Shown piece after piece: positions 38,128 through 64,000 of a stretch of 64,000 nucleotides of DNA. The stretch is from Siphonodentalium dalli (Eukaryota > Mollusca > Scaphopoda > Gadilida > Siphonodentaliidae), in NCBI GenBank assembly GCA_032622095.1, contig CP136068.1, positions 164,815,465-164,879,464 of the forward strand, written 5' to 3'. The notes under the pieces were generated by a model. That model was given only the letters and a program-made list of their open reading frames with translations. It did not search any database and was not told the origin of the DNA. Every line of letters begins with the position of its first letter. The stretch's first letter is position 1. The position numbers and the translations under genes are program-made.

Positions 38128-38161
<34 letters not shown>

Positions 38162-38625
38162 CTTTTATTCCTCCATTCTGGAGAGTCTCAATATGGTACA
38201 CAAACTGTACATGCATGTGTGTCATTATATATACAAAATCCAAATAAGTCAATATATACACTAAGAGACATGAAATGATTGTCGAAGCGACAAGGTAATT
38301 TGTCGGTAACTTACAACAACTGTTCGCATTGAAAGTAGAGAGAAACAAAAATACAGCTTATAGTGAAATTGAATATCTAACAGTCAATGAATTTGACAGG
38401 TATTATTTATCTTGATGTAGCCCAAAAACAAGTATATGTTTGCAAATTATATGTAAGTTGTAGGTATAAGTAGTGAGAACGAGTATATATATGCTGACGG
38501 GGACAGAGCGTGGCCGTCGCAGAACATTATCACAGATTAGAGCTGTACATTTGGTGATCGGCCACAAGAGTGTGATTTAATTGTTGCCGGATGAAACGTG
38601 AGTTTACACGTGTATTCGTAACTTG
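35714..38625. other. Spacer of the inverted repeat, no gene seen
   Basis: AT-rich and without recognisable proteins. A (TA)n run lies at 38129-38160. Open frames up to 125 codons lack motifs and are not supported. Confidence 0.5.
38129..38160. repeat. (TA)n microsatellite
   Basis: Sixteen TA dinucleotides in an uninterrupted run. Confidence 0.95.
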
Positions 38626-39650: not shown

Positions 39651-39883
39651 TTTTCCAGATGATTCCAGTTTGTGTTACTTTATCGGAATAATTAATATAA
39701 GAAATATATGCTTTTCGTTCATAAATAATCTATAACAGTACAACAGTACGACACATAATTATCAAACGTATCATGTTTTGTAAATGTATTTGCATTATAT
39801 GAATTTCTAGTCTGAAATAATAATAATAGATGACATGAGATAAGTGTTTCTCTCATATTATATTTATGAAACGAGTATAAGAA

Positions 39884-40232
39884 ACGGGGCTTAAAATAAC
39901 ACTATTTAGAATATTTGATTTTGCTAGTATGCAACGGTGCCAAAGCAAAGAAATAAAAATAATGGGAAGGTATACAATAGTTTTGATTTGACACAATGTG
40001 GTGCGCGATTTTGAATTGCCATATGCCGATATAGTTATGAATAGAGTGATCGCATTTGCTATTCTAGTTTCGGTTTTATACTTTCCAATTACATTTTCAG
40101 TGAGAAGAATGGTGCGTTCACATGACGGGCAAGAAAATTAAGGTATGCCCCATGTGACTTACTTGACCAATGCAAAAAATAATACAGGAAAATATCTGAT
40201 GGAGGCAGTGCACTGATATGTTGTCGCCTGTT
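39884..40232 (-). repeat. Large inverted repeat, right arm segment 1
   Basis: Reverse complement of about 35365-35713, starting ACGGGGCTTAAAATAACAC. Similarity ends at TTGTCGCCTGT, where the 3.7-kb inserted segment begins. Compared with the left arm about 55-75 bp is missing at this junction. Confidence 0.85.
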
Positions 40233-43200: not shown

Positions 43201-43977
43201 CATATATACTCCCCATACCGTTCTTCCGATTTCTGTTTAAGGCGTTTTATTGAATATGATTCTGACCCAATTGCTAGCTCTACCATTCGAGTATGTAACT
43301 CGGACAGAGTATACAGTTCTTACCTCCCCCAGACTCCAGCCATACACGCAACGAATCAAATGAGCGTTGCATTTCGACACTTGATGTTCTGCCCTGTGGT
43401 TTTCTCTCAGATGGTTCCTCATTTATTTCTAACAAGATGCATGATATACGGCTTCTGCAGCAAGATCAATGCAACTTAGAATGCGTTTCTGAACCTTCAA
43501 TGCCCACGAATCCTCTCTTATTCGGCAATGTTCTAAAACTTTATCTCTAATAGGGAGAGTTGCCACTGATCGCACTTGCCTTCTACCGGGATGACGGGGA
43601 TCTGGTGTATGGCACCCTTTCCACATAATCTTCTTTGAAATTAAATGGGTCTTGTTTAGACCTCATTTTCTTAGATAGCGGAACCGTATCCATACACACA
43701 GGATTGACACTGAAGGTTCTTTTCCTATCAGTGAAATCACACCTACAGTCTTTATGGACCAACTAGACCTTACCAATGGGTGTGGTTATTTGTTGCCCCT
43801 TTAAATATTCAGATAAATGGTTATATCCTCGCTTATCAGAGAAGTCAATCAAAGTCTCCAATCCTTTTGCCATAAGTTTTACCAATGGATTTTCCTTAGT
43901 TAAGTGTCCACATTACATTGACATATGCTATATGAAAGGATAAGACGCACAAGTCCTCTTGAAAGTTGCTGGTCCCT
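40233..43977. mobile_element. 3.7-kb segment inserted in the right arm
   Basis: Absent from the left arm, so it arrived after the inverted repeat formed, or replaced a short piece of it. It is almost filled by one broken minus-strand gene. No clear TIR or target duplication was found at its edges (TTAGTCTGGCTG at one end, GCTGGTCCCTAG at the other). Confidence 0.6.
40682..43626 (-). pseudogene. Broken uncharacterised repeat-associated gene with CXC-like tail
   Basis: Minus-strand blocks in order. First RSVATLPIRDKVLEHCR and AAEAVYHASC (about 43430-43600). Then VICFKDMAKYLINDKWY and IGHSIEQYARSRSV (42850-43200), LVEYFPGTFTQWVADNVDHN with GSFHDMGII (42560-42720), LTFDQPLWFKAVEI and CRLGGFHLMSFMGSIG (42030-42160). 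Next MLKDFIRAERTGDWNLHLVG and LSSDLVIEQVLMRSIKSRGG (41200-41510), and last a 46-codon frame (40682-40822) with CCTNQCSCCKNGLKC and EDCREEICTN, a CXC-like cysteine tail. I recall this architecture from uncharacterised proteins repeated in cnidarian and mollusc genomes; the function is unknown. Lesions include a frameshift near 42845, a TAG near 42728, a TGA at 42229, a frameshift pair around 41870 and 41520, and more stops beyond 41089. Alternatively some breaks could be introns, but the in-frame stops argue for decay. Confidence 0.65.
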
Positions 43978-44282
43978 AGAAGGGATACGATGTTAACCGT
44001 TCACGCACTCGAGTTATGATCAATCATATAGTATCGTCGGTTTCAACAACAGACTTGGTAATTCCATTTTTAGATGAGTTGACAGAATCGCTGAACTGTT
44101 ATATGGATGTGTGTAGGGACATATATCTATAGAGGATGTTCATGTTGGATTTCCAACTGCAATCCCACCTTGAACCAGGCCCAAACACCAAGATCACATA
44201 ATTAAATTTGCACCCCTCCCCATGGCTTTGAATTTCACACCTGGTACCTCACATGCCTCGTTTTTAACGTGAAAGTTTGACT
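43978..44282 (-). repeat. Large inverted repeat, right arm segment 2
   Basis: Reverse complement of about 35012-35305, from AGGGATACGATGTTAACCGT to TTTTTAACGTGAAAGTTTGA. Slightly more diverged than segment 3. Confidence 0.8.
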
Positions 44283-45586
44283 GAACACCGGGGAGGGAGG
44301 GACCTCCAGGATATTTCAAACCACTATTTTGACCAAAAGTAATAGGAATGTAAATGTTGGTCTAAAACAACAAATTCCACAATGCATTAGTGGTTGGAAA
44401 ATCAGACTACCAGAACAATCTCAACTCATTGTTGGTGTGAAATTTCCAACTAATATTTTGTCAGGTTTTAAATTTCCAACTAGTGAAAACTTTGACCATA
44501 GTGAGAGGGAGTCCCAGGTCCACACATACACCCCTGTATATTTGGTAATGTAATATACACCACAACCCCACGAACCAAGCCAAATCGACAACTCTAGAAA
44601 ACTTCATATGGGGTCTCGGTGGGGATGGGGTCATCCGATTGCCACCAAACCATAATAATTTTTGTCATCCCACATATGCATGTACTTTGGAATTATAACA
44701 GGCGTGAACCTATTTCCAAATGACATGACCATTTTATCATATGTCAAAGGTTTTTATGCACGAGAACAGCAACGTGGCTTCAGGTCGGTGGGTGCCTCAT
44801 CCCACCCGACTACGGTAATATATGTTGAGTTGGAAATTTCATAATGTAATGAATTGCCAATATGGACTATAGGTTGTTTACCGGACGCAAGTCACTTGAA
44901 CCACCACGACTACTACTGTTATGATTGAGTTCAATCAACGATATCCAAACCGCCGCGTTTGCACGAGCGTAATCTTTGCAGCAAGAAAATAACAGGGTAC
45001 AATTGTACCTGATATTTTCTTGCAGATATTTTCTTGCAGCTTCATGTGAACGCACAAGAAATGAGTTAAATGCCTAAACATACCTATATGTGATAGTGAT
45101 TAAGGGGGCATGTTTTATTCCAAAAGTTCATGGTTTATTATTTCGATGGGTCATTATAATGAAAGTAATGGCATATGCAGCAGAGAACCACAACATTACA
45201 CCCATTCGCCTATAATATGACGTACAATTTAACGACCATGGTTGAGGATAAGCCCTTTGACTGAAAGTCGGATATTTATGTCTATTGATATAACATATAT
45301 AATTAATTAATGTGGACTAATTTCAAATTTTCAAATGATATTTGTCAACAGTTGAAACGGGCACAAATGTTCTATGGGGTAATATTAATCAGAGGAAACG
45401 TTTGAGTTTGATAGTAATGATGCCACGACCTGGATGCAACCACATCACTGGTCCATATCATGACAAGCCATTTTTTGGTTTGGCTTTCCGGGTATTCAAG
45501 CAGAGTTTCGAACCTAAAGAGTGCGTTGGCACGTATTCAATATCCCAAATATCTCATTCATTTTTCAGAATATGTGTATGTGAGAA
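44283..45586. other. 1.3-kb segment inserted in the right arm
   Basis: The left arm is continuous across this point (CTCTGTGATCAAAATTTCACG at about 35004), so this is an insertion in the right arm. No coding sequence, TIR or target duplication recognised. A small repeat of ATATTTTCTTGCAG occurs near 45013-45042, and the words ATGTGAACGCAC there resemble the arm sequence near 35477. Confidence 0.6.
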
Positions 45587-46734
45587 TCGATCACAGAGAC
45601 GAAACTGGAAGGTCACTGTGGGGGATGCGCAGTTTGGAATTTATAACCGACATCCTCTGGCCCCCCTTTAAGCAGACCGATATAAATTCCTATATAAGTC
45701 AGAGTTATTCCATCGTAGATTTAGACATGTATGTGTTTTTTTACACAATATAGATATATTGCAATATAATAATGCACACAAAACAATTAAAGGTCCGCAT
45801 TTATTGCGCGGGAGTGGAATAACCAGGATCGGCTGTTTTCCTGTCAGCCCCTGGGTTGGAATTTCCACCCCAACATCCCCATGGTTGGATATTTCCAACT
45901 GATGCCATTTCATTCCAAAAGTTTGAATGAAAGTACGAATTTATTCGAATTATGGTCTAAACGTATATCAAATTTAACACAACTTTTTGCAATACAAAAC
46001 TATCGAAATCAACATAACATCAGTCTGCAACTTCAATCTAATGTCTAATCAGTTTTGAAATTTTCAACTGTTGAAACAAATCCAAGGTCGGTGTAAGACA
46101 CCACATCCGAAACACATTGATCGTGGATGATATAGAGGATCTCACATGAGTTTCTATTTGATACGCAATTTACCAACCGAGTTCACTAAATTCGATTTGA
46201 GCCGAGGCTCAAATAGAATTTAGTGGACGAGGTTGATAAATTAAGTATAAAATAGAACGAGTTTGAGATACCTTTTATCACATGATCAAATAAACGCGAA
46301 GTTTTCATCGAAAACAAGAATCATAAACTTCAACGATCGCAAGTCATTTAAATAATGGTGTGACGTCATCGCACGCACTAATAGTACACGTGTGTCTTAC
46401 CAATACTTATTAAGCTGGTTTTGTGGGTTAATTATGTGATAAATTATTGTAGCATGCGAGTGTGGAAAATATTTCCATAAAAATCCTTTGGACAATGCAT
46501 AATACGATTTTAAAAATGTCCCCAAATTACTAACCATGATCAACCACACGTACGTGTAACTTGTAACGTGTGTGTTACTATAACACTATTGTATTGCTAC
46601 AGAAATGCACACGGCGCCAACACTTCACGTTGTAATATAGTCGGGAACATAGAAGGCGAGATAACTCTATTGTGTTTATTGGTCAATTTGTGCTGATCAA
46701 CACATTTCTGGTATCCTGGTGAATGGTACATACA
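45587..46734 (-). repeat. Large inverted repeat, right arm segment 3
   Basis: Reverse complement of 33834 to about 35010, including the compound palindrome (46140-46295) and the GTACGTGTAACTTGTAACGT motif. It ends at GAATGGTACATACA, where the tandem array starts. In the left arm the same sequence continues as TGTTGATTTCCC, giving the uninterrupted state of the insertion site. Confidence 0.85.
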
Positions 46735-47186
46735 GGTTACACTGGTGTAAATATTTCCCATAGGCTTCAATGTTAACGTTTGTTGATCTGCATCAGAGGT
46801 CAAATGGAAACTGTTCAAACTGCCTTCGGATTATGTGAGCTTGACATCTGTGGAAACTTTCCCAATAAAAAAATCAACACCGTCTAGCAGGGAATCCACT
46901 TCAAATTTTCGTTTTTTCATGACTAGGGTCAGTTCCGCACTAAAAAAATATTGTCATTTTTTCAATCACACTTAAAATTTCTAAACAGCCACAACAGACT
47001 TCACCTTTAATGAATGGGCCTCTTGGCAAATGAAGTTTGTGGGAGAATGATTCCTTGAATTTTTGTCAACAGTTTACATTTAATTCATGCAACCAATCAC
47101 AGCCCAGAGTGTTTTAACTGTGAAACTCTATACTCCTCCCGCAACCGCAGGGGGGAGCTGCCTATAGTATTTACACCAGTGTAACC
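46735..47186. repeat. 452-bp block with inverted ends, U1
   Basis: Begins GGTTACACTGGTGTAAATA and ends with the exact inverse TATTTACACCAGTGTAACC. In U2-U5 the inverted symmetry extends outward by CCTTTA and TAAAGG, but on the left of U1 the preceding bases are ACATACA. So the true element end is GGTTACAC. The block lies in direct orientation in every unit and could be either the terminal repeat of a larger element or a separate MITE. No gene inside. Confidence 0.8.
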
Positions 47187-48124
47187 TAAAGGGCCATGTG
47201 GCCTTTCTTCATATTTTTTGTGCATAACCCATTGTGAACCTTGATATATACCTATAATTATTAAACTGATGTTGTTTTAAAAAAATGTGTTTTTAATGCC
47301 ATGTGACCCTTTAATTGGAACCCACCCAATAATACACCAATTCAGAATAAAAAGCCAAAATGCAGGTTGGATTTGAGTTTAATTTAATAATATGAGGCAT
47401 CTAATAAAGCATGAGAAGTTATACCACATTCATTTGATCAGGTTTTCACTTGGCTTTCATCTGTTGTGTCCCATGAATTTAATTTCTCCACAGGAACAGA
47501 TATGCACAGGTTTCATTTAACCCTATGCAAATCAGCTGCAGATTCACACAAAAAATGCCTTTACTTTGAAAAATAAATAGTGTGGAGGGTTCATTAGTCA
47601 GTAAACTTGGCATAATTTTGAAGAACAATTACTACTTGTCCCAAAATCAGAAAAATTAAGTGGAAAATTATTTAAACAATGAGCTCAGACAAGGGTGTTT
47701 TAACCCTGGGTCAGGTGAATTTTCCTGATTGAAAATGGTGCTAAAATTTGTAATGTCTGCTGCAATCCCAATTAGAAGGAATCCTTAATCTATTGTCTCA
47801 CAGTATCAAATGTCGTTAACTAACATTGGACAGGGGGTGCCAATGATGAGGTTATAATGACAACATGTTCCTTCAGCTGATAAAGTAGTAATATATCAAC
47901 AGATAAGATGGCAGACATTTTCAAGCATCATTAATTTCAAAACTCCTTAAAAGCAAGGTGCTGATCTCAGAACGGTTAGTTGTCATCATTTCTCGAGACA
48001 AATATCATTTCTCATTGTAAAAATTCTGGAAGTTGTATATTCGCGAGAAGAATTTTCCAAATTAATGCTGTTAATGTGACAGAGTTGTTGAGTGGATTTT
48101 GGAATTTGTGAGGACTGTGAGACA
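47187..48124. other. 5' non-coding region of U1
   Basis: No coding sequence recognised. It probably holds the promoter and 5' UTR of the transposase-like gene. Several short A/T runs, no clear TATA context that can be singled out. Confidence 0.4.
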
Positions 48125-50276
48125 ATGAAGTTTACATTTGATAATCCCCTCAGATTCAAACCAGGACACAAACAGTTGTATAAAGCCAAGCGAGAACCAT
48201 ATGTGGATAACAGAGTAGTGAAACATTTACGCAAAAGAACGATCATTACATCACTGGACATTCTCGAAAAGCCAAACTCTGTGAGAGCACATCAAACTCG
48301 GTCTGCTGCAAACAGTCTTAATCCAAGAGGGAAGGGTCAATCTGACAACAAAGAGCCTGAAAGAAAAAATGAAAGGTAAACATCTCTCACAATATTCCAT
48401 GCAACAAACAATGTTATATGCATGTTCTTTTCATCATATAGATAAGAAATAGGGGGGGGGGGTATGAAATTCAGCATTATAATATCAATAAACTAAACAT
48501 ATATTTGATCTTCTCAAATCAAGTGTATGACTTTAAAATCTTTTTTCAAAATCTTGGCTGTGTCCTCCTGCATGACAAAAAAAATTAATTTGACATGCCC
48601 CCAAACCTCTGTGTGCAGGAAATGATTTGAAAACTGTACCCTGAGTCAAAACACAGGTTTTCAGCCTAATAATTTGCAGATAGAGTTACTCCCCTTATTC
48701 TGTTCATATGAATTGGGTCACTAATTGCAAACAGCACAGGTATAACATTGCTTTGCATGCAGATATATATAAATTAAATTGCAGCACTGTGAGTGCTTTA
48801 GTTTACTATTCATTCAAAGGACTGTTTGGAGCAGGCAGTGTTTTTAAAGAAAAAAAATATCTCACAGTTAGACCGATATGTATGTACCTTTAATATATAT
48901 GGTTCAAAGAGTAAAATTTAGGATTTTAATTTTTAATTTTCAGAAATGATAGCCCAGACAAGAGATGTGTCAGTGGTTGGCAATGCGAATGCGGATCAAA
49001 CAGGGTGGTCAATATACGCCGAAATGCGATGATGTGGAACTCTTCCTTCGAAAAACATAGGGCATATAAACCCACGTGTACAGGATTCCTATACTGGGAC
49101 ATGAACGCTGAGGAAATTCGTGGAATTGGATGTAGAGAGAAAATGATCCCTAACCCTAACACTAACCCTAACCATAAACACCTGAATAAATGTGATAATC
49201 ACACATGTGGGAAAGACTGTTTCGCAACGATTCCATTTGAGAAGAGCATCGGCGATGAGAGAACATGGGCGAAAGAAGCATTTGGTGAAATGAAAACCAA
49301 TAGCAATATCGAGATTGGTCACCTTGTTACTGATCCCGATGCAGCGGGCTTCAAAGGCTGTGAGGATCTCTATGACGAAGGAGCAACAGCGACCAGACCA
49401 ACTCATCAACTGGACTCAGCTCATGTGTCGAGAAACCATCGGAAATTCATCAAAAACCATAAGACGCTGCCAACTCTCATCGCTGGACCTGACCTAAAAA
49501 GCAAATCAAAACTGATAAATAAACTCGCAATGAACATTTCTGATCGATGTCAGGGTGAATTGACATCTGCGGGAAAGCATTTCAAAGCCAACGCTGAAGG
49601 AATGAAGAAACATTTACTGAATGTGAAAGAAGCAATAGTGAAGTGTTTCCAAAACTCCCATGTTATGTGTAAAAAATACTCATATCTGTGCAAGGGAACG
49701 AAAAAATCCAACTGGATCGTTAAAAATGAAACTGTGCTAGGACCCAAATTTACGATCAATAAAACTTCGGACTGTTCGGATATTCTCACGGAGTGTGTTG
49801 ACTACAGACTGTGTCCACAAATGATTGACAAGACTTTTCTTGGCATGAACACGCAAAAAGCCGAGGCATTCAACAGAGCAATTCGGGTATCTCTGCCCAA
49901 AAATGTGACATTTACCCGAAATGTTAGTGGGCGTGCACATTCAGCTTGCCATTCCACAAATGTAGGCTGTGGGAATTCCATATCTGTGTTGTGTAAAGAA
50001 CTTGATTGTGAGATTCACCCAAGATCAAAAGTGTCCAAAAGACTTGCAGCAGTGCAGAAGGCTGGAAATGACTTGAGATCATATAAAATGACCAAAAAGT
50101 CCAAACGGGCAAGAGTGGACAGGAGGGCAAAGTTATATGCTCTCTACGACAAACATAGTGAGGAAATTGCCTATCAGAAGGATATCATGATTCCACCTGA
50201 AGCATGTCCCAAACAGTTAAAGGAACACACATACACTAAGTCATCCAAGTGGAAAAGGGTTAAACCAAGGAGGTGA
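48125..50276 (+). CDS. Mutator-like transposase-related protein, two exons, U1
   Basis: Exons 48125-48375 and 48944-50276 join across a 568-bp GT-AG intron (AG/GTAAAC and TTTTCAG/A) with matching phase, giving 527 aa. The start ATG has A at -3; an in-frame TGA lies at 48089. Exon 1 is basic. Exon 2 opens with a Cys cluster (C92, C98, C100; more at 128, 146, 167, 172, 176). Then come LVTDPDAAGF (D214, D216), HQLDSAHVSRNH (D241, H244) and FLGMNTQKAEAFNRAI (E391), which line up in order with the later catalytic part of Mutator-like transposases (second D, C/H region, final E). RNVSGRAHSACHSTNVGCG follows, and the tail is Lys/Arg-rich. A usual first Asp motif (DGSW-like) was not found, so activity is uncertain. 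Residues 152-160 are NPNTNPNHK here, encoded by CCCTAA repeats. Its 3' end faces the endonuclease gene 20 bp away. Confidence 0.7.
48450..48462 (+). repeat. Poly-G run in the intron
   Basis: A run of G within the intron differs in length between units by one or two bases and explains much of the 4040-4042 bp period difference. Confidence 0.8.
49148..49173 (+). repeat. Telomere-type (CCCTAA)n inside the coding exon, U1
   Basis: CCCTAACCCTAACACTAACC plus one more CCCTAACC, with one C-to-A change relative to U2 and U3. It is in frame and encodes an Asn-Pro run. The same hexamer is the telomere repeat of most animals (as TTAGGG). Confidence 0.85.
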
Positions 50277-50296
50277 AATGTACCTTTCTCTTTAAC

Positions 50297-50695
50297 TCAA
50301 ATCAGACAAAAGGGTCTATGTGCCCTAGTGCAATATTTCTGTCCCTCGCAATGGCGTCGTTCAACATTTTTTTCATGGCTTTCCATAACAATGTGGTCGG
50401 GATTTACACATGTCTTCCTATGGCATATGTGACTAAGTTCGAGGCTGCCAGGGTAATAGGCGGGTGGAGACATCGCGAGTCTGTGTTTTATGACGAATGC
50501 TATTCGGTGGACACCCCAATCCTTTCTCGGCTGACCGGGCTCAGAATTATAACTCGACGGGAACTTGACATATAAATATCCATAACCGTCCTTTCTTGTC
50601 CGACCTGTCCAAACGCGACAGTCGAACAACCCCTCAAATCTCGATTTTTCGGATAATTTCGCATTGTAAAAATCATAAAATTGACTCTCCTCCAT
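50297..50695 (-). CDS. His-Cys-box (I-PpoI-type) endonuclease, U1
   Basis: Intronless 132-aa protein with an ATG at 50693-50695. The C-terminal half carries LELSHICHRKTCVNPDH, then ESHEKN and a C-x5-C-x3-H-x3-C end. Spacing from H89 matches I-PpoI almost exactly: H89 as general base, N110 as metal ligand, C26/C91/C96/H101 as first zinc site, C116/C122/H126/C130 as second. This is the zf-His_Me_endon fold, known mainly from homing endonucleases in rDNA introns, where it makes a sequence-specific double-strand break. Size is close to I-PpoI (about 160 aa). It is not inside an intron here but on the opposite strand and tail-to-tail with the transposase-like gene. All predicted key residues are intact. 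The target site is unknown. Confidence 0.85.
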   Translation of the reverse strand: MEESQFYDFYNAKLSEKSRFEGLFDCRVWTGRTRKDGYGYLYVKFPSSYNSEPGQPRKDWGVHRIAFVIKHRLAMSPPAYYPGSLELSHICHRKTCVNPDHIVMESHEKNVERRHCEGQKYCTRAHRPFCLI

Positions 50696-50776
50696 GTTTA
50701 TTCACTTGTATGACTTAAATGTGTGTTTAAAAATTGGATTTGGGACATGCTATCAGGAACTGGATAAATACCTTTA

Positions 50777-51228
50777 GGTTACACTGGTGTAAATATTTCC
50801 CATAGGCTTCAATGTTAACGTTTGTTGATCTGCATCAGAGGTCAAATGGAAACTGTTCAAACTGCCTTCGGATTATGTGAGCTTGACATCTGTGGAAACT
50901 TTCCCAATAAAAAAATCAACACCGTCTAGCAGGGAATCCACTTCAAATTTTCGTTTTTTCATGACTAGGGTCAGTTCCGCACTAAAAAAATATTGTCATT
51001 TTTTCAATCACACTTAAAATTTCTAAACAGCCACAACAGACTTCACCTTTAATGAATGGGCCTCTTGGCAAATGAAGTTTGTGGGAGAATGATTCCTTGA
51101 ATTTTTGTCAACAGTTTACATTTAATTCATGCAACCAATCACAGCCCAGAGTGTTTTAACTGTGAAACTCTATACTCCTCCCGCAACCGCAGGGGGGAGC
51201 TGCCTATAGTATTTACACCAGTGTAACC
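50777..51228. repeat. 452-bp block with inverted ends, U2
   Basis: Same as U1 block but preceded by CCTTTA, so the inverted symmetry is 25 bp per side. Lies between the endonuclease gene of U1 and the 5' region of U2. Confidence 0.85.
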
Positions 51229-52166
51229 TAAAGGGCCATGTGGCCTTTCTTCATATTTTTTGTGCATAACCCATTGTGAACCTTGATATATACCTATAAT
51301 TATTAAACTGATGTTGTTTTAAAAAAATGTGTTTTTAATGCCATGTGACCCTTTAATTGGAACCCACCCAATAATACACCAATTCAGAATAAAAAGCCAA
51401 AATGCAGGTTGGATTTGAGTTTAATTTAATAATATGAGGCATCTAATAAAGCATGAGAAGTTATACCACATTCATTTGATCAGGTTTTCACTTGGCTTTC
51501 ATCTGTTGTGTCCCATGAATTTAATTTCTCCACAGGAACAGATATGCACAGGTTTCATTTAACCCTATGCAAATCAGCTGCAGATTCACACAAAAAATGC
51601 CTTTACTTTGAAAAATAAATAGTGTGGAGGGTTCATTAGTCAGTAAACTTGGCATAATTTTGAAGAACAATTACTACTTGTCCCAAAATCAGAAAAATTA
51701 AGTGGAAAATTATTTAAACAATGAGCTCAGACAAGGGTGTTTTAACCCTGGGTCAGGTGAATTTTCCTGATTGAAAATGGTGCTAAAATTTGTAATGTCT
51801 GCTGCAATCCCAATTAGAAGGAATCCTTAATCTATTGTCTCACAGTATCAAATGTCGTTAACTAACATTGGACAGGGGGTGCCAATGATGAGGTTATAAT
51901 GACAACATGTTCCTTCAGCTGATAAAGTAGTAATATATCAACAGATAAGATGGCAGACATTTTCAAGCATCATTAATTTCAAAACTCCTTAAAAGCAAGG
52001 TGCTGATCTCAGAACGGTTAGTTGTCATCATTTCTCGAGACAAATATCATTTCTCATTGTAAAAATTCTGGAAGTTGTATATTCGCGAGAAGAATTTTCC
52101 AAATTAATGCTGTTAATGTGACAGAGTTGTTGAGTGGATTTTGGAATTTGTGAGGACTGTGAGACA

Positions 52167-54317
52167 ATGAAGTTTACATTTGATAATCCCCTCAGATTCA
52201 AACCAGGACACAAACAGTTGTATAAAGCCAAGCGAGAACCATATGTGGATAACAGAGTAGTGAAACATTTACGCAAAAGAACGATCATTACATCACTGGA
52301 CATTCTCGAAAAGCCAAACTCTGTGAGAGCACATCAAACTCGGTCTGCTGCAAACAGTCTTAATCCAAGAGGGAAGGGTCAATCTGACAACAAAGAGCCT
52401 GAAAGAAAAAATGAAAGGTAAACATCTCTCACAATATTCCATGCAACAAACAATGTTATATGCATGTTCTTTTCATCATATAGATAAGAAATAGGGGGGG
52501 GGGTATGAAATTCAGCATTATAATATCAATAAACTAAACATATATTTGATCTTCTCAAATCAAGTGTATGACTTTAAAATCTTTTTTCAAAATCTTGGCT
52601 GTGTCCTCCTGCATGACAAAAAAAATTAATTTGACATGCCCCCAAACCTCTGTGTGCAGGAAATGATTTGAAAACTGTACCCTGAGTCAAAACACAGGTT
52701 TTCAGCCTAATAATTTGCAGATAGAGTTACTCCCCTTATTCTGTTCATATGAATTGGGTCACTAATTGCAAACAGCACAGGTATAACATTGCTTTGCATG
52801 CAGATATATATAAATTAAATTGCAGCACTGTGAGTGCTTTAGTTTACTATTCATTCAAAGGACTGTTTGGAGCAGGCAGTGTTTTTAAAGAAAAAAAATA
52901 TCTCACAGTTAGACCGATATGTATGTACCTTTAATATATATGGTTCAAAGAGTAAAATTTAGGATTTTAATTTTTAATTTTCAGAAATGATAGCCCAGAC
53001 AAGAGATGTGTCAGTGGTTGGCAATGCGAATGCGGATCAAACAGGGTGGTCAATATACGCCGAAATGCGATGATGTGGAACTCTTCCTTCGAAAAACATA
53101 GGGCATATAAACCCACGTGTACAGGATTCCTATACTGGGACATGAACGCTGAGGAAATTCGTGGAATTGGATGTAGAGAGAAAATGATCCCTAACCCTAA
53201 CCCTAACCCTAACCATAAACACCTGAATAAATGTGATAATCACACATGTGGGAAAGACTGTTTCGCAACGATTCCATTTGAGAAGAGCATCGGCGATGAG
53301 AGAACATGGGCGAAAGAAGCATTTGGTGAAATGAAAACCAATAGCAATATCGAGATTGGTCACCTTGTTACTGATCCCGATGCAGCGGGCTTCAAAGGCT
53401 GTGAGGATCTCTATGACGAAGGAGCAACAGCGACCAGACCAACTCATCAACTGGACTCAGCTCATGTGTCGAGAAACCATCGGAAATTCATCAAAAACCA
53501 TAAGACGCTGCCAACTCTCATCGCTGGACCTGACCTAAAAAGCAAATCAAAACTGATAAATAAACTCGCAATGAACATTTCTGATCGATGTCAGGGTGAA
53601 TTGACATCTGCGGGAAAGCATTTCAAAGCCAACGCTGAAGGAATGAAGAAACATTTACTGAATGTGAAAGAAGCAATAGTGAAGTGTTTCCAAAACTCCC
53701 ATGTTATGTGTAAAAAATACTCATATCTGTGCAAGGGAACGAAAAAATCCAACTGGATCGTTAAAAATGAAACTGTGCTAGGACCCAAATTTACGATCAA
53801 TAAAACTTCGGACTGTTCGGATATTCTCACGGAGTGTGTTGACTACAGACTGTGTCCACAAATGATTGACAAGACTTTTCTTGGCATGAACACGCAAAAA
53901 GCCGAGGCATTCAACAGAGCAATTCGGGTATCTCTGCCCAAATATGTGACATTTACCCGAAATGTTAGTGGGCGTGCACATTCAGCTTGCCATTCCACAA
54001 ATGTAGGCTGTGGGAATTCCATATCTGTGTTGTGTAAAGAACTTGATTGTGAGATTCACCCAAGATCAAAAGTGTCCAAAAGACTTGCAGCAGTGCAGAA
54101 GGCTGGAAATGACTTGAGATCATATAAAATGACCAAAAAGTCCAAACGGGCAAGAGTGGACAGGAGGGCAAAGTTATATGCTCTCTACGACAAACATAGT
54201 GAGGAAATTGCCTATCAGAAGGATATCATGATTCCACCTGAAGCATGTCCCAAACAGTTAAAGGAACACACATACACTAAGTCATCCAAGTGGAAAAGGG
54301 TTAAACCAAGGAGGTGA
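52167..54317 (+). CDS. Mutator-like transposase-related protein, U2
   Basis: Exons 52167-52417 and 52985-54317, same splice sites and 527-aa product as in U1. Differences seen: the Asn-Pro run is uninterrupted (NPNPNPN, no Thr), and one Asn is changed to Tyr in SLPKYVTFTR. All D, H, E and Cys positions listed for U1 are kept. The open frame is intact, so this copy is as likely to be functional as the others. Confidence 0.7.
53189..53214 (+). repeat. Telomere-type (CCCTAA)4 in coding exon, U2
   Basis: Four perfect CCCTAA units followed by CC, in frame within the transposase-like gene. Confidence 0.9.
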
Positions 54318-54337
54318 AATGTACCTTTCTCTTTAAC

Positions 54338-54736
54338 TCAAATCAGACAAAAGGGTCTATGTGCCCTAGTGCAATATTTCTGTCCCTCGCAATGGCGTCG
54401 TTCAACATTTTTTTCATGGCTTTCCATAACAATGTGGTCGGGATTTACACATGTCTTCCTATGGCATATGTGACTAAGTTCGAGGCTGCCAGGGTAATAG
54501 GCGGGTGGAGACATCGCGAGTCTGTGTTTTATGACGAATGCTATTCGGTGGACACCCCAATCCTTTCTCGGCTGACCGGGCTCAGAATTATAACTCGACG
54601 GGAACTTGACATATAAATATCCATAACCGTCCTTTCTTGTCCGACCTGTCCAAACGCGACAGTCGAACAACCCCTCAAATCTCGATTTTTCGGATAATTT
54701 CGCATTGTAAAAATCATAAAATTGACTCTCCTCCAT
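54338..54736 (-). CDS. His-Cys-box endonuclease, U2
   Basis: 132 aa, identical in amino acid sequence to the U1 copy. 20 bp from the stop of the convergent transposase-like gene. Active-site His, Asn and all eight zinc ligands are present. Confidence 0.85.
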   Translation of the reverse strand: MEESQFYDFYNAKLSEKSRFEGLFDCRVWTGRTRKDGYGYLYVKFPSSYNSEPGQPRKDWGVHRIAFVIKHRLAMSPPAYYPGSLELSHICHRKTCVNPDHIVMESHEKNVERRHCEGQKYCTRAHRPFCLI

Positions 54737-54817
54737 GTTTATTCACTTGTATGACTTAAATGTGTGTTTAAAAATTGGATTTGGGACATGCTATCAGGAA
54801 CTGGATAAATACCTTTA

Positions 54818-55269
54818 GGTTACACTGGTGTAAATATTTCCCATAGGCTTCAATGTTAACGTTTGTTGATCTGCATCAGAGGTCAAATGGAAACTGTTCA
54901 AACTGCCTTCGGATTATGTGAGCTTGACATCTGTGGAAACTTTCCCAATAAAAAAATCAACACCGTCTAGCAGGGAATCCACTTCAAATTTTCGTTTTTT
55001 CATGACTAGGGTCAGTTCCGCACTAAAAAAATATTGTCATTTTTTCAATCACACTTAAAATTTCTAAACAGCCACAACAGACTTCACCTTTAATGAATGG
55101 GCCTCTTGGCAAATGAAGTTTGTGGGAGAATGATTCCTTGAATTTTTGTCAACAGTTTACATTTAATTCATGCAACCAATCACAGCCCAGAGTGTTTTAA
55201 CTGTGAAACTCTATACTCCTCCCGCAACCGCAGGGGGGAGCTGCCTATAGTATTTACACCAGTGTAACC
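54818..55269. repeat. 452-bp block with inverted ends, U3
   Basis: Identical arrangement to U2, ends GGTTACACTGG and CCAGTGTAACC, flanked by CCTTTA and TAAAGG. Confidence 0.85.
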
Positions 55270-56207
55270 TAAAGGGCCATGTGGCCTTTCTTCATATTTT
55301 TTGTGCATAACCCATTGTGAACCTTGATATATACCTATAATTATTAAACTGATGTTGTTTTAAAAAAATGTGTTTTTAATGCCATGTGACCCTTTAATTG
55401 GAACCCACCCAATAATACACCAATTCAGAATAAAAAGCCAAAATGCAGGTTGGATTTGAGTTTAATTTAATAATATGAGGCATCTAATAAAGCATGAGAA
55501 GTTATACCACATTCATTTGATCAGGTTTTCACTTGGCTTTCATCTGTTGTGTCCCATGAATTTAATTTCTCCACAGGAACAGATATGCACAGGTTTCATT
55601 TAACCCTATGCAAATCAGCTGCAGATTCACACAAAAAATGCCTTTACTTTGAAAAATAAATAGTGTGGAGGGTTCATTAGTCAGTAAACTTGGCATAATT
55701 TTGAAGAACAATTACTACTTGTCCCAAAATCAGAAAAATTAAGTGGAAAATTATTTAAACAATGAGCTCAGACAAGGGTGTTTTAACCCTGGGTCAGGTG
55801 AATTTTCCTGATTGAAAATGGTGCTAAAATTTGTAATGTCTGCTGCAATCCCAATTAGAAGGAATCCTTAATCTATTGTCTCACAGTATCAAATGTCGTT
55901 AACTAACATTGGACAGGGGGTGCCAATGATGAGGTTATAATGACAACATGTTCCTTCAGCTGATAAAGTAGTAATATATCAACAGATAAGATGGCAGACA
56001 TTTTCAAGCATCATTAATTTCAAAACTCCTTAAAAGCAAGGTGCTGATCTCAGAACGGTTAGTTGTCATCATTTCTCGAGACAAATATCATTTCTCATTG
56101 TAAAAATTCTGGAAGTTGTATATTCGCGAGAAGAATTTTCCAAATTAATGCTGTTAATGTGACAGAGTTGTTGAGTGGATTTTGGAATTTGTGAGGACTG
56201 TGAGACA

Positions 56208-58357
56208 ATGAAGTTTACATTTGATAATCCCCTCAGATTCAAACCAGGACACAAACAGTTGTATAAAGCCAAGCGAGAACCATATGTGGATAACAGAGTA
56301 GTGAAACATTTACGCAAAAGAACGATCATTACATCACTGGACATTCTCGAAAAGCCAAACTCTGTGAGAGCACATCAAACTCGGTCTGCTGCAAACAGTC
56401 TTAATCCAAGAGGGAAGGGTCAATCTGACAACAAAGAGCCTGAAAGAAAAAATGAAAGGTAAACATCTCTCACAATATTCCATGCAACAAACAATGTTAT
56501 ATGCATGTTCTTTTCATCATATAGATAAGAAATAGGGGGGGGGTATGAAATTCAGCATTATAATATCAATAAACTAAACATATATTTGATCTTCTCAAAT
56601 CAAGTGTATGACTTTAAAATCTTTTTTCAAAATCTTGGCTGTGTCCTCCTGCATGACAAAAAAAATTAATTTGACATGCCCCCAAACCTCTGTGTGCAGG
56701 AAATGATTTGAAAACTGTACCCTGAGTCAAAACACAGGTTTTCAGCCTAATAATTTGCAGATAGAGTTACTCCCCTTATTCTGTTCATATGAATTGGGTC
56801 ACTAATTGCAAACAGCACAGGTATAACATTGCTTTGCATGCAGATATATATAAATTAAATTGCAGCACTGTGAGTGCTTTAGTTTACTATTCATTCAAAG
56901 GACTGTTTGGAGCAGGCAGTGTTTTTAAAGAAAAAAAATATCTCACAGTTAGACCGATATGTATGTACCTTTAATATATATGGTTCAAAGAGTAAAATTT
57001 AGGATTTTAATTTTTAATTTTCAGAAATGATAGCCCAGACAAGAGATGTGTCAGTGGTTGGCAATGCGAATGCGGATCAAACAGGGTGGTCAATATACGC
57101 CGAAATGCGATGATGTGGAACTCTTCCTTCGAAAAACATAGGGCATATAAACCCACGTGTACAGGATTCCTATACTGGGACATGAACGCTGAGGAAATTC
57201 GTGGAATTGGATGTAGAGAGAAAATGATCCCTAACCCTAACCCTAACCCTAACCATAAACACCTGAATAAATGTGATAATCACACATGTGGGAAAGACTG
57301 TTTCGCAACGATTCCATTTGAGAAGAGCATCGGCGATGAGAGAACATGGGCGAAAGAAGCATTTGGTGAAATGAAAACCAATAGCAATATCGAGATTGGT
57401 CACCTTGTTACTGATCCCGATGCAGCGGGCTTCAAAGGCTGTGAGGATCTCTATGACGAAGGAGCAACAGCGACCAGACCAACTCATCAACTGGACTCAG
57501 CTCATGTGTCGAGAAACCATCGGAAATTCATCAAAAACCATAAGACGCTGCCAACTCTCATCGCTGGACCTGACCTAAAAAGCAAATCAAAACTGATAAA
57601 TAAACTCGCAATGAACATTTCTGATCGATGTCAGGGTGAATTGACATCTGCGGGAAAGCATTTCAAAGCCAACGCTGAAGGAATGAAGAAACATTTACTG
57701 AATGTGAAAGAAGCAATAGTGAAGTGTTTCCAAAACTCCCATGTTATGTGTAAAAAATACTCATATCTGTGCAAGGGAACGAAAAAATCCAACTGGATCG
57801 TTAAAAATGAAACTGTGCTAGGACCCAAATTTACGATCAATAAAACTTCGGACTGTTCGGATATTCTCACGGAGTGTGTTGACTACAGACTGTGTCCACA
57901 AATGATTGACAAGACTTTTCTTGGCATGAACACGCAAAAAGCCGAGGCATTCAACAGAGCAATTCGGGTATCTCTGCCCAAAAATGTGACATTTACCCGA
58001 AATGTTAGTGGGCGTGCACATTCAGCTTGCCATTCCACAAATGTAGGCTGTGGGAATTCCATATCTGTGTTGTGTAAAGAACTTGATTGTGAGATTCACC
58101 CAAGATCAAAAGTGTCCAAAAGACTTGCAGCAGTGCAGAAGGCTGGAAATGACTTGAGATCATATAAAATGACCAAAAAGTCCAAACGGGCAAGAGTGGA
58201 CAGGAGGGCAAAGTTATATGCTCTCTACGACAAACATAGTGAGGAAATTGCCTATCAGAAGGATATCATGATTCCACCTGAAGCATGTCCCAAACAGTTA
58301 AAGGAACACACATACACTAAGTCATCCAAGTGGAAAAGGGTTAAACCAAGGAGGTGA
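56208..58357 (+). CDS. Mutator-like transposase-related protein, U3
   Basis: Exons 56208-56458 and 57025-58357, 527 aa. It has the uninterrupted Asn-Pro run as in U2 and the Asn form (SLPKNVTFTR) as in U1 and U4. The intron is slightly shorter because of a shorter poly-G run near 56536. Confidence 0.7.
57229..57254 (+). repeat. Telomere-type (CCCTAA)4 in coding exon, U3
   Basis: Four perfect CCCTAA units followed by CC, as in U2. Confidence 0.9.
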
Positions 58358-58377
58358 AATGTACCTTTCTCTTTAAC

Positions 58378-58776
58378 TCAAATCAGACAAAAGGGTCTAT
58401 GTGCCCTAGTGCAATATTTCTGTCCCTCGCAATGGCGTCGTTCAACATTTTTTTCATGGCTTTCCATAACAATGTGGTCGGGATTTACACATGTCTTCCT
58501 ATGGCATATGTGACTAAGTTCGAGGCTGCCAGGGTAATAGGCGGGTGGAGACATCGCGAGTCTGTGTTTTATGACGAATGCTATTCGGTGGACACCCCAA
58601 TCCTTTCTCGGCTGACCGGGCTCAGAATTATAACTCGACGGGAACTTGACATATAAATATCCATAACCGTCCTTTCTTGTCCGACCTGTCCAAACGCGAC
58701 AGTCGAACAACCCCTCAAATCTCGATTTTTCGGATAATTTCGCATTGTAAAAATCATAAAATTGACTCTCCTCCAT
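58378..58776 (-). CDS. His-Cys-box endonuclease, U3
   Basis: 132 aa, same protein as U1 and U2, with all zinc and active-site residues kept. Confidence 0.85.
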   Translation of the reverse strand: MEESQFYDFYNAKLSEKSRFEGLFDCRVWTGRTRKDGYGYLYVKFPSSYNSEPGQPRKDWGVHRIAFVIKHRLAMSPPAYYPGSLELSHICHRKTCVNPDHIVMESHEKNVERRHCEGQKYCTRAHRPFCLI

Positions 58777-58857
58777 GTTTATTCACTTGTATGACTTAAA
58801 TGTGTGTTTAAAAATTGGATTTGGGACATGCTATCAGGAACTGGATAAATACCTTTA

Positions 58858-59309
58858 GGTTACACTGGTGTAAATATTTCCCATAGGCTTCAATGTTAAC
58901 GTTTGTTGATCTGCATCAGAGGTCAAATGGAAACTGTTCAAACTGCCTTCGGATTATGTGAGCTTGACATCTGTGGAAACTTTCCCAATAAAAAAATCAA
59001 CACCGTCTAGCAGGGAATCCACTTCAAATTTTCGTTTTTTCATGACTAGGGTCAGTTCCGCACTAAAAAAATATTGTCATTTTTTCAATCACACTTAAAA
59101 TTTCTAAACAGCCACAACAGACTTCACCTTTAATGAATGGGCCTCTTGGCAAATGAAGTTTGTGGGAGAATGATTCCTTGAATTTTTGTCAACAGTTTAC
59201 ATTTAATTCATGCAACCAATCACAGCCCAGAGTGTTTTAACTGTGAAACTCTATACTCCTCCCGCAACCGCAGGGGGGAGCTGCCTATAGTATTTACACC
59301 AGTGTAACC
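58858..59309. repeat. 452-bp block with inverted ends, U4
   Basis: As in U2 and U3; no sequence difference noticed by eye. Confidence 0.85.
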
Positions 59310-60247
59310 TAAAGGGCCATGTGGCCTTTCTTCATATTTTTTGTGCATAACCCATTGTGAACCTTGATATATACCTATAATTATTAAACTGATGTTGTTT
59401 TAAAAAAATGTGTTTTTAATGCCATGTGACCCTTTAATTGGAACCCACCCAATAATACACCAATTCAGAATAAAAAGCCAAAATGCAGGTTGGATTTGAG
59501 TTTAATTTAATAATATGAGGCATCTAATAAAGCATGAGAAGTTATACCACATTCATTTGATCAGGTTTTCACTTGGCTTTCATCTGTTGTGTCCCATGAA
59601 TTTAATTTCTCCACAGGAACAGATATGCACAGGTTTCATTTAACCCTATGCAAATCAGCTGCAGATTCACACAAAAAATGCCTTTACTTTGAAAAATAAA
59701 TAGTGTGGAGGGTTCATTAGTCAGTAAACTTGGCATAATTTTGAAGAACAATTACTACTTGTCCCAAAATCAGAAAAATTAAGTGGAAAATTATTTAAAC
59801 AATGAGCTCAGACAAGGGTGTTTTAACCCTGGGTCAGGTGAATTTTCCTGATTGAAAATGGTGCTAAAATTTGTAATGTCTGCTGCAATCCCAATTAGAA
59901 GGAATCCTTAATCTATTGTCTCACAGTATCAAATGTCGTTAACTAACATTGGACAGGGGGTGCCAATGATGAGGTTATAATGACAACATGTTCCTTCAGC
60001 TGATAAAGTAGTAATATATCAACAGATAAGATGGCAGACATTTTCAAGCATCATTAATTTCAAAACTCCTTAAAAGCAAGGTGCTGATCTCAGAACGGTT
60101 AGTTGTCATCATTTCTCGAGACAAATATCATTTCTCATTGTAAAAATTCTGGAAGTTGTATATTCGCGAGAAGAATTTTCCAAATTAATGCTGTTAATGT
60201 GACAGAGTTGTTGAGTGGATTTTGGAATTTGTGAGGACTGTGAGACA

Positions 60248-62398
60248 ATGAAGTTTACATTTGATAATCCCCTCAGATTCAAACCAGGACACAAACAGTT
60301 GTATAAAGCCAAGCGAGAACCATATGTGGATAACAGAGTAGTGAAACATTTACGCAAAAGAACGATCATTACATCACTGGACATTCTCGAAAAGCCAAAC
60401 TCTGTGAGAGCACATCAAACTCGGTCTGCTGCAAACAGTCTTAATCCAAGAGGGAAGGGTCAATCTGACAACAAAGAGCCTGAAAGAAAAAATGAAAGGT
60501 AAACATCTCTCACAATATTCCATGCAACAAACAATGTTATATGCATGTTCTTTTCATCATATAGATAAGAAATAGGGGGGGGGGTATGAAATTCAGCATT
60601 ATAATATCAATAAACTAAACATATATTTGATCTTCTCAAATCAAGTGTATGACTTTAAAATCTTTTTTCAAAATCTTGGCTGTGTCCTCCTGCATGACAA
60701 AAAAAATTAATTTGACATACCCCCAAACCTCTGTGTGCAGGAAATGATTTGAAAACTGTACCCTGAGTCAAAACACAGGTTTTCAGCCTAATAATTTGCA
60801 GATAGAGTTACTCCCCTTATTCTGTTCATATGAATTGGGTCACTAATTGCAAACAGCACAGGTATAACATTGCTTTGCATGCAGATATATATAAATTAAA
60901 TTGCAGCACTGTGAGTGCTTTAGTTTACTATTCATTCAAAGGACTGTTTGGAGCAGGCAGTGTTTTTAAAGAAAAAAAATATCTCACAGTTAGACCGATA
61001 TGTATGTACCTTTAATATATATGGTTCAAAGAGTAAAATTTAGGATTTTAATTTTTAATTTTCAGAAATGATAGCCCAGACAAGAGATGTGTCAGTGGTT
61101 GGCAATGCGAATGCGGATCAAACAGGGTGGTCAATATACGCCGAAATGCGATGATGTGGAACTCTTCCTTCGAAAAACATAGGGCATATAAACCCACGTG
61201 TACAGGATTCCTATACTGGGACATGAACGCTGAGGAAATTCGTGGAATTGGATGTAGAGAGAAAATGATCCCTAACCCTAACACTAACCCTAACCATAAA
61301 CACCTGAATAAATGTGATAATCACACATGTGGGAAAGACTGTTTCGCAACGATTCCATTTGAGAAGAGCATCGGCGATGAGAGAACATGGGCGAAAGAAG
61401 CATTTGGTGAAATGAAAACCAATAGCAATATCGAGATTGGTCACCTTGTTACTGATCCCGATGCAGCGGGCTTCAAAGGCTGTGAGGATCTCTATGACGA
61501 AGGAGCAACAGCGACCAGACCAACTCATCAACTGGACTCAGCTCATGTGTCGAGAAACCATCGGAAATTCATCAAAAACCATAAGACGCTGCCAACTCTC
61601 ATCGCTGGACCTGACCTAAAAAGCAAATCAAAACTGATAAATAAACTCGCAATGAACATTTCTGATCGATGTCAGGGTGAATTGACATCTGCGGGAAAGC
61701 ATTTCAAAGCCAACGCTGAAGGAATGAAGAAACATTTACTGAATGTGAAAGAAGCAATAGTGAAGTGTTTCCAAAACTCCCATGTTATGTGTAAAAAATA
61801 CTCATATCTGTGCAAGGGAACGAAAAAATCCAACTGGATCGTTAAAAATGAAACTGTGCTAGGACCCAAATTTACGATCAATAAAACTTCGGACTGTTCG
61901 GATATTCTCACGGAGTGTGTTGACTACAGACTGTGTCCACAAATGATTGACAAGACTTTTCTTGGCATGAACACGCAAAAAGCCGAGGCATTCAACAGAG
62001 CAATTCGGGTATCTCTGCCCAAAAATGTGACATTTACCCGAAATGTTAGTGGGCGTGCACATTCAGCTTGCCATTCCACAAATGTAGGCTGTGGGAATTC
62101 CATATCTGTGTTGTGTAAAGAACTTGATTGTGAGATTCACCCAAGATCAAAAGTGTCCAAAAGACTTGCAGCAGTGCAGAAGGCTGGAAATGACTTGAGA
62201 TCATATAAAATGACCAAAAAGTCCAAACGGGCAAGAGTGGACAGGAGGGCAAAGTTATATGCTCTCTACGACAAACATAGTGAGGAAATTGCCTATCAGA
62301 AGGATATCATGATTCCACCTGAAGCATGTCCCAAACAGTTAAAGGAACACACATACACTAAGTCATCCAAGTGGAAAAGGGTTAAACCAAGGAGGTGA
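60248..62398 (+). CDS. Mutator-like transposase-related protein, U4
   Basis: Exons 60248-60498 and 61066-62398, 527 aa. It shares the Thr-containing Asn-Pro run with U1 rather than with its neighbours U2 and U3. One intron change was seen (GACATACCCCC near 60715 against GACATGCCCCC elsewhere). Confidence 0.7.
61270..61295 (+). repeat. Telomere-type repeat in coding exon, U4
   Basis: Carries the same C-to-A change (CACTAA) as the U1 copy. Confidence 0.85.
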
Positions 62399-62418
62399 AA
62401 TGTACCTTTCTCTTTAAC

Positions 62419-62817
62419 TCAAATCAGACAAAAGGGTCTATGTGCCCTAGTGCAATATTTCTGTCCCTCGCAATGGCGTCGTTCAACATTTTTTTCATGG
62501 CTTTCCATAACAATGTGGTCGGGATTTACACATGTCTTCCTATGGCATATGTGACTAAGTTCGAGGCTGCCAGGGTAATAGGCGGGTGGAGACATCGCGA
62601 GTCTGTGTTTTATGACGATTGCTATTCGGTGGACACCCCAATCCTTTCTCGGCTGACCGGGCTCAGAATTATAACTCGACGGGAACTTGACATATAAATA
62701 TCCATAACCGTCCTTTCTTGTCCGACCTGTCCAAACGCGACAGTCGAACAACCCCTCAAATCTCGATTTTTCGGATAATTTCGCATTGTAAAAATCATAA
62801 AATTGACTCTCCTCCAT
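62419..62817 (-). CDS. His-Cys-box endonuclease, U4
   Basis: 132 aa with one visible substitution: Phe67 becomes Ile (VHRIAIVIKH), in the hydrophobic strand before the active site. All catalytic and zinc-binding residues are kept, so function is probably retained. Confidence 0.85.
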   Translation of the reverse strand: MEESQFYDFYNAKLSEKSRFEGLFDCRVWTGRTRKDGYGYLYVKFPSSYNSEPGQPRKDWGVHRIAIVIKHRLAMSPPAYYPGSLELSHICHRKTCVNPDHIVMESHEKNVERRHCEGQKYCTRAHRPFCLI

Positions 62818-62898
62818 GTTTATTCACTTGTATGACTTAAATGTGTGTTTAAAAATTGGATTTGGGACATGCTATCAGGAACTGGATAAATACCTTTA

Positions 62899-64000
62899 GG
62901 TTACACTGGTGTAAATATTTCCCATAGGCTTCAATGTTAACGTTTGTTGATCTGCATCAGAGGTCAAATGGAAACTGTTCAAACTGCCTTCGGATTATGT
63001 GAGCTTGACATCTGTGGAAACTTTCCCAATAAAAAAATCAACACCGTCTAGCAGGGAATCCACTTCAAATTTTCGTTTTTTCATGACTAGGGTCAGTTCC
63101 GCACTAAAAAAATATTGTCATTTTTTCAATCACACTTAAAATTTCTAAACAGCCACAACAGACTTCACCTTTAATGAATGGGCCTCTTGGCAAATGAAGT
63201 TTGTGGGAGAATGATTCCTTGAATTTTTGTCAACAGTTTACATTTAATTCATGCAACCAATCACAGCCCAGAGTGTTTTAACTGTGAAACTCTATACTCC
63301 TCCCGCAACCGCAGGGGGGAGCTGCCTATAGTATTTACACCAGTGTAACCTAAAGGGCCATGTGGCCTTTCTTCATATTTTTTGTGCATAACCCATTGTG
63401 AACCTTGATATATACCTATAATTATTAAACTGATGTTGTTTTAAAAAAATGTGTTTTTAATGCCATGTGACCCTTTAATTGGAACCCACCCAATAATACA
63501 CCAATTCAGAATAAAAAGCCAAAATGCAGGTTGGATTTGAGTTTAATTTAATAATATGAGGCATCTAATAAAGCATGAGAAGTTATACCACATTCATTTG
63601 ATCAGGTTTTCACTTGGCTTTCATCTGTTGTGTCCCATGAATTTAATTTCTCCACAGGAACAGATATGCACAGGTTTCATTTAACCCTATGCAAATCAGC
63701 TGCAGATTCACACAAAAAATGCCTTTACTTTGAAAAATAAATAGTGTGGAGGGTTCATTAGTCAGTAAACTTGGCATAATTTTGAAGAACAATTACTACT
63801 TGTCCCAAAATCAGAAAAATTAAGTGGAAAATTATTTAAACAATGAGCTCAGACAAGGGTGTTTTAACCCTGGGTCAGGTGAATTTTCCTGATTGAAAAT
63901 GGTGCTAAAATTTGTAATGTCTGCTGCAATCCCAATTAGAAGGAATCCTTAATCTATTGTCTCACAGTATCAAATGTCGTTAACTAACATTGGACAGGGG
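62899..64000 (+). repeat. Partial fifth unit (U5)
   Basis: Contains the 452-bp block (62899-63350) and about 650 bp of the 5' non-coding region, then the window ends. It shows that the array continues to the right. Confidence 0.95.

Follow-up and report, generated by a model that had tools for sequence, protein, structure and literature searches.

A tandem array in Siphonodentalium dalli, probably a multimer of a KolobokP DNA transposon with an internally deleted transposase gene

Introduction

KolobokP, which belongs to the Kolobok superfamily of DNA transposons, combines a transposase with an endonuclease, a pair reported from seven animal phyla (Kojima and Bao 2022, Mobile DNA 13:24, PMC9587614). 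Published long terminal direct repeats (LTDRs) of these elements measure about 450 or 660 bp, have RR...YY ends and carry short inverted repeats of their own of up to 18 bp, and target duplications of 3–5 bp are found at varied sites. The same paper describes junctions between two abutting INTs (the INT being what the LTDRs flank) that are short by 3–4 bp, considers a circular form carrying a few bases of the donor as an intermediate, and offers 'induced unequal crossover' as a hypothesis for array growth. Here we analyse 64,000 bp of the scaphopod Siphonodentalium dalli (assembly GCA_032622095.1, contig CP136068.1, positions 164,815,465 to 164,879,464 of the forward strand; hereafter the window), in which a tandem array of paired transposase-like and endonuclease genes starts at position 46735. 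The array and its relatives resemble KolobokP as described in PMC9587614 in their LTDR–INT–LTDR layout, DDD/E transposase, converging His-Me finger endonuclease, multimers and non-autonomous families, but the window copies differ in lacking the D1 region of the transposase, presumed to hold the first catalytic aspartate, and in carrying telomere-like filler.

Two other systems invite comparison. His-Cys box homing endonucleases such as I-PpoI resemble the window enzyme at the SH, CH, C.NP.H, ES and N positions, which are shared or invariant, but the window enzyme sits in a DNA transposon rather than in a group I intron. A mobile end sequence on both sides, and an intermediate that may keep a few donor bases, are also features of bacterial composite transposons and copy-out/paste-in insertion sequence families, which PMC9587614 discusses; here, however, the genes lie between the repeats and not inside them.

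The pairing has been published before, together with a model to explain it (PMC9587614), so neither is new. Possible additions are the INT-terminal 4-mers that replace one duplication copy at some insertions and a test of LTDR pairs, neither of which was found in the main text of that paper, together with a D1-less, telomere-scarred array whose endonuclease has remained open. The genome is of further value for its many young, nearly identical KolobokP copies, whose donor and target footprints make the proposed intermediate testable.

Results and discussion

Layout of the window array

The array is very probably a multimer, (LTDR–INT)n–LTDR, of a KolobokP DNA transposon with an internally deleted transposase gene. 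Its 4.04-kb repetition runs from 46735 with unit spacings of 4042, 4041, 4040 and 4041 bp. Four units, among which 6 columns vary, lie completely within the window, along with the first 1,102 bp of a fifth. A sequence-only reading of the window had reported at least four near-identical units from this position, as these figures bear out, and chance falls far short of explaining near-identical tandem repetition over several kilobases. Each unit consists of a 452-bp block, the LTDR, and behind it an INT that carries two convergent genes: a transposase-like one in two exons on the plus strand, and one for a 132-amino-acid (aa) endonuclease on the minus strand. In unit 1, LTDR 1 (46735..47186, plus strand) has the ends GGTTACAC...GTGTAACC, with 19-bp perfect inverted repeats, and the INT (47187..50776, plus strand) has TAAAGG as its first bases and CCTTTA as its last. 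This INT contains transposase exon 1 (48125..48375) and exon 2 (48944..50276), the latter with the D1 region missing, both on the plus strand, and the His-Cys-box (I-PpoI-type) endonuclease gene (50297..50695, minus strand).

The corresponding features lie on the same strands in the following units: LTDR 2 at 50777..51228, the two exons at 52167..52417 and 52985..54317 and the endonuclease at 54338..54736 in unit 2; LTDR 3 at 54818..55269, the exons at 56208..56458 and 57025..58357 and the endonuclease at 58378..58776 in unit 3; and LTDR 4 at 58858..59309, the exons at 60248..60498 and 61066..62398 and the endonuclease at 62419..62817 in unit 4. LTDR 5 (62899..63350, plus strand) opens unit 5, which runs on past the window end; from there on the array, located on contig C8, reaches a total of 13 endonuclease matches before it breaks off in an incomplete unit followed by N bases. 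TACA at 46731..46734, the left flank of the array, is presumed to be a target duplication; the right end of the array falls in this gap. An Rfam scan of the window gave no match at the gathering threshold.

The transposase gene

With splice sites taken from the sequence, the transposase-like gene, of Kolobok or 'Mutator-like' type, is predicted to encode 527 aa in all four window units. The gene had been read as intact in every unit; the frame is indeed open, but the gene is not intact, because window exon 2 matches only positions 202–357 of the Pfam profile PF20700 (E = 1.9e-11) and telomere-like filler has replaced the D1 region. By comparison, L010, a full-length copy elsewhere in the genome, encodes 677 aa and matches positions 2–357 (E = 6.4e-48). 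The stretch absent from the window protein includes the motif QADGLYNNP (QSDGLYNNP in a second family, described below), whose aspartate, judging by motif order and not by structure, is presumed to be the first catalytic residue. L010 carries the motifs DGLYNN, TDPDAAG, DSAH and AEAFN and hence, with residues assigned by motif order, the DDD/E and C/DxxH signature, whereas the window copies, lacking the D1 region, do not show the complete signature. The window array is probably a non-autonomous derivative.

The missing stretch is occupied by CCCTAA-type repeats at 49148..49178 in unit 1 and at 53189–53219, 57229–57259 and 61270–61300 in units 2, 3 and 4. From the resemblance of this deletion junction to a double-strand break repaired with captured telomeric DNA, we infer that it may have arisen in that way. 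The shortened protein is matched in full by 12 of the 13 units of the C8 array, the remaining one matching only from residue 146. The D1-less variant also stands as a single insertion at C3:143.54 Mb, where the junction was read and the flanks are TTTA/TTTA, and at C7:47.12 Mb, where it was recognised by protein match and the flanks are TGTG/TGTG. It has therefore been mobilised, and we infer that this happened in trans.

Genome-wide pairing and a second family

We searched the genome (2.23 Gb, 9 contigs) and scored 99 of 779 transposase candidates, 150 of 444 endonuclease candidates and the best 40 of 1147 LTDR matches. A converging endonuclease was present within 4 kb at 97 of the 99 scored transposase matches, the two without one being C1:61234541 and C3:14079178. 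The two genes thus go together well beyond the window array. Endonuclease matches were found on all 9 contigs, the 150 scored ones falling into 93 clusters. Forty-six of these 150 had no scored transposase within 4 kb; they include fragments as well as the second family, whose transposase is outside the scored list. The sequence-only reading had proposed a composite element that joins a DDE transposase to a His-Cys-box endonuclease, an idea that would fail if the pair were confined to this array. The pairing at 97 of 99 matches, the spread over all nine contigs, the second family and the seven phyla in PMC9587614 all uphold the proposal. It is vanishingly improbable, given the 93 clusters, the second family and those phyla, that the two genes came together by chance and were preserved so in a single array, and the genome-wide search rules this out.

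The sequence-only reading had asked whether the gene pair also occurs elsewhere as single insertions together with the 452-bp block. Within the same genome it does, and such insertions have the form LTDR–INT–LTDR with 4-bp target duplications. Because they carry one block on either side of the INT, the block is a long terminal direct repeat, and neighbouring array units share one. The family 1 LTDR has 452 bp, GG...CC ends and 19-bp perfect inverted repeats; family 2, represented by L043, has the same layout with an LTDR of 451 bp, GG...CC ends, 18-bp perfect inverted repeats and a TATA/TATA duplication. The two families are 64% identical in the transposase and 44% in the endonuclease, and their LTDRs keep several blocks, including the CCAAT-like AACCAATCA, amid much other divergence. 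Another tandem relative, L044, has partly decayed; no second endonuclease open reading frame (ORF) of at least 100 aa is listed for its second unit.

Set against the published description, the array units and their relatives appear to be a new member of KolobokP, with which the full-length copies agree in every feature examined. In addition to the transposase motifs of L010, these features are an INT flanked by two LTDRs (452 bp in family 1, 451 bp in family 2), 4-bp target duplications at 34 of 41 insertions, multimers in the form of LTDR-sharing arrays and of INT–INT junctions short by 3–4 bp (two read), and a converging His-Me finger enzyme of the I-PpoI group.

Target duplications and exceptional flanks

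We examined 54 insertions (one set of 41, one of 10, and L027, L028 and L043) and found both outer ends in 41 of them: 31 of the set of 41, 7 of the set of 10, and the three additional loci. Eight were dropped for having one side without a usable LTDR (L063, L065, L067, L071, L073, L077, L081 and L085) and two for an unrecognisable right end (L089 and L095), and L111, L115 and L117 were dropped from the set of 10; L023 was counted by its outermost right end and not by the inner one. Identical 4-bp flanks were present at 34 of the 41 insertions, with varying, AT-rich sequences. Only two of these 34 exact cases had a TTAA duplication (L024 and L083), unlike the canonical TTAA specificity of Kolobok. 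The sequence-only reading had also suggested that a site-specific break could drive insertion; a choice of insertion sites by the endonuclease finds no support, as the 4-bp duplications vary, and PMC9587614 says the same for other families.

All seven remaining insertions carry an INT-terminal 4-mer in place of one duplication copy: TTTA on the left in six (L012, L018, L020, L028, L075 and L091) and TAAA on the right in one, L125, an eight-unit array. TTTA and TAAA are the last and first four nucleotides of the INT at the inner junctions (CCTTTA–LTDR–TAAAGG). TTTA stands on both sides in two of the 34 exact insertions (L014 and L105), and Fisher's test gave p = 1.6e-6, a value that is post hoc because the idea arose from the same data; the mirror case, L125, surfaced after the idea had been formed.

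Empty sites were sought for all seven exceptions, and a comparison was possible for five. L091, with TTTA on the left and TATC on the right, corresponds to a single TATC in the one paralogue read. For L075, which has CCTCATTTA on the left and TATAC on the right, all seven paralogues read CCTCATATAC, in support of a carry-over of donor flank. A diverged copy of the L028 site beside L025 fits the same four-for-four change, with two substitutions. The tandem repeats neighbouring L012 are as long as the site would be with TTTA removed, but only a single base separates TTTT from TTTA. At L018, seven of seven paralogues read CCAGCTATATGTG and the left flank of the insertion is CCAGCTTTTA, one base longer than a four-for-four swap would give. 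L020 was unique in the genome, and L125 had no paralogue across its junction. Thus, three of the seven exceptions are clean four-for-four replacements, two are looser and two are without a comparable empty site. This pattern suggests that the INT-terminal 4-mers are donor flank carried out of multimers. As a separate observation, L018 sits in a repeat family (40 of 69 candidates scored) that resembles reverse transcriptase, with a YADD motif recognised by eye.

Gene-less arrays, donor scars and LTDR pairs

A gene-less array at C6:18185605–18229000 (L025 and L026) has the same LTDR, a 902-bp INT and a period of 1354 bp, and comprises at least 25 LTDRs, continuing at the end of the sequence examined. 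Some of its LTDRs are missing, so that two INTs abut; of two such junctions read, one is short by 3 bp at the left INT tip and the other by 4 bp at the right tip. The 25 LTDRs listed for this array give 24 spacings, of which three measure 2253 bp and three 2252 bp, as LTDR losses with 3–4 bp of shortening would give, although with the best 40 of 1147 LTDR candidates scored, some long spacings may contain an LTDR outside the scored set. On our reading, the bases lost at such donors would be those gained at new sites.

Across sites, array periods are regular within each array and differ between arrays (4495, 4490, 4491–4495, 4032–4048 and 6196–6198 bp), as local amplification would give. The 6196–6198-bp array, at C9:23152960–23165354, has about 1.7 kb more per unit than the 4495-bp units. 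We give a nearly even chance to the explanation that array growth reflects ordinary unequal crossing-over or replication slippage, the endonuclease then serving another role, such as excision or the cutting of circle junctions. Near-identical direct repeats of 452 bp are a sufficient substrate for unequal crossing-over, gene-less arrays exist, and uniform periods within but not between arrays are in keeping with it; selection on the endonuclease (see below) and the pairing in two families are left unexplained by it.

Of 41 elements, 28 have two complete LTDRs, and in these we compared the pairs. Partner LTDRs differed by 2.1 changes on average, versus 4.58 for 5' and 3' LTDRs of different elements, and none of 20,000 permutations of the pairing gave a value as low. 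Private variants were common to both LTDRs in 8 of the 28 elements, and minor non-singleton alleles were present in both partners in 47 instances and in just one partner in 6; no allele in these 28 elements was biased to one side by four or more. As most elements are too young to tell, the pair signal comes from the older ones, which are a minority. Exchange between LTDRs would fit this resemblance, and so would a stage with a single LTDR; the data do not separate the two.

Taken as donors, multimers would account for both kinds of footprint, and we lean towards this view: the transposase would free a unit together with four nucleotides of INT on one side (TTTA on the left or TAAA on the right), which would replace one target-duplication copy at the new site, and the donor would keep an INT–INT scar short by 3–4 bp. 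Some new copies would thus leave multimer interiors through an intermediate that keeps donor flank, and the freed unit could be circular, with a spacer, or linear with staggered ends. More generally, full-length copies would supply transposase in trans and so move LTDR-bounded units, whether monomers, whole multimers or gene-less units, while unequal exchange between LTDRs, with or without an endonuclease-made break, would lengthen arrays. We consider it unlikely that arrays form by integration of LTDR–INT circles into existing LTDRs. The private variants common to paired LTDRs in 8 of 28 elements speak for such integration, and an intermediate that carries donor flank would be compatible with the INT–INT scars and the 4-mers from INT ends, but no circle was observed and plain exchange fits the LTDR resemblance equally well.

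Several points weigh against our interpretation of the array and its movement. A foreign LTDR is nearer than the partner in 11 of the 28 elements and equally near in 12, leaving the partner nearest in 5, and the replacement at L018 is five-for-four rather than four-for-four. Neither mobilisation in trans nor unequal exchange was seen directly, the right end of the window array lies in a gap, and the assignment to KolobokP follows from comparison with the published description.

The endonuclease

The 132-aa endonuclease ORF is open in all four window units, a natural case in which a catalytic region is gone from the transposase but the endonuclease frame is uninterrupted. It matches Pfam zf-His_Me_endon (E = 2.8e-13), and its top sequence match in the PDB is I-PpoI (E = 5e-4), in agreement with the earlier view of an intact I-PpoI-type endonuclease converging on the transposase gene in each unit. 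The SH, CH, C.NP.H, ES and N positions were invariant across 8 aligned endonucleases (8 of 20 distinct proteins). The ratio of nonsynonymous to synonymous changes (pN/pS) was 0.30 overall, 0.16 for changes found in at least two distinct genes and 0.42 for singletons, as calculated from 22 distinct open genes out of 50 sequences, at least nine of which are a locus taken twice, with open 132-codon copies only. This pattern supports selection of the endonuclease for function, without showing which. A stretch of 81 bp separates the endonuclease ATG (50695) from the right LTDR (50777), which may act as promoter of the gene. An AlphaFold model of the endonuclease was poor (mean pLDDT, a predicted local confidence score, 44.2; 8 sequences), and a search for viral relatives gave 193 pattern-matching stretches in viral contigs, 0 of which encode a relative.

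The sequence-only reading had further proposed that a break might drive array growth, an idea close to the 'induced unequal crossover' hypothesis in PMC9587614. The endonuclease would break one chromatid at an LTDR, and a unit would be added when the break is repaired from an out-of-register LTDR of the sister. We regard this as a tentative possibility, with the balance tilted against it. It would be in keeping with the purifying selection on the endonuclease (pN/pS 0.30 and 0.16) and its open frame in four window units despite the damaged transposase, with the frequency of multimers, and with the sequence blocks common to the LTDRs of two families. However, the pN/pS count took in intact copies only, and gene-less arrays such as that on C6 need neither gene in cis, although the genes may act in trans. 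As a candidate cut site we considered the near-palindrome TTACACTGGTGTAA at the LTDR ends and rejected it as unremarkable, since its score of 6/8 is equalled by 4 other positions of the family 1 LTDR; in family 2, the terminal repeat is absent from the best 8 LTDR positions.

Other features of the window

A second tandem array occupies window positions 1–11400, with units of approximately 1.8–2.2 kb that contain 2.9 to 5.9 copies of a G+C-richer 122-bp subrepeat; locus L012 holds related sequence. Non-long-terminal-repeat-retrotransposon-like ORFs lie at 23156–25017, the second of which matches the reverse transcriptase profile RVT_1 (E = 3.6e-19). Finally, paired long inverted repeats of 296–418 bp with 95–98% complementarity are present at 34067–46526, two of them standing back to back immediately left of the KolobokP array.

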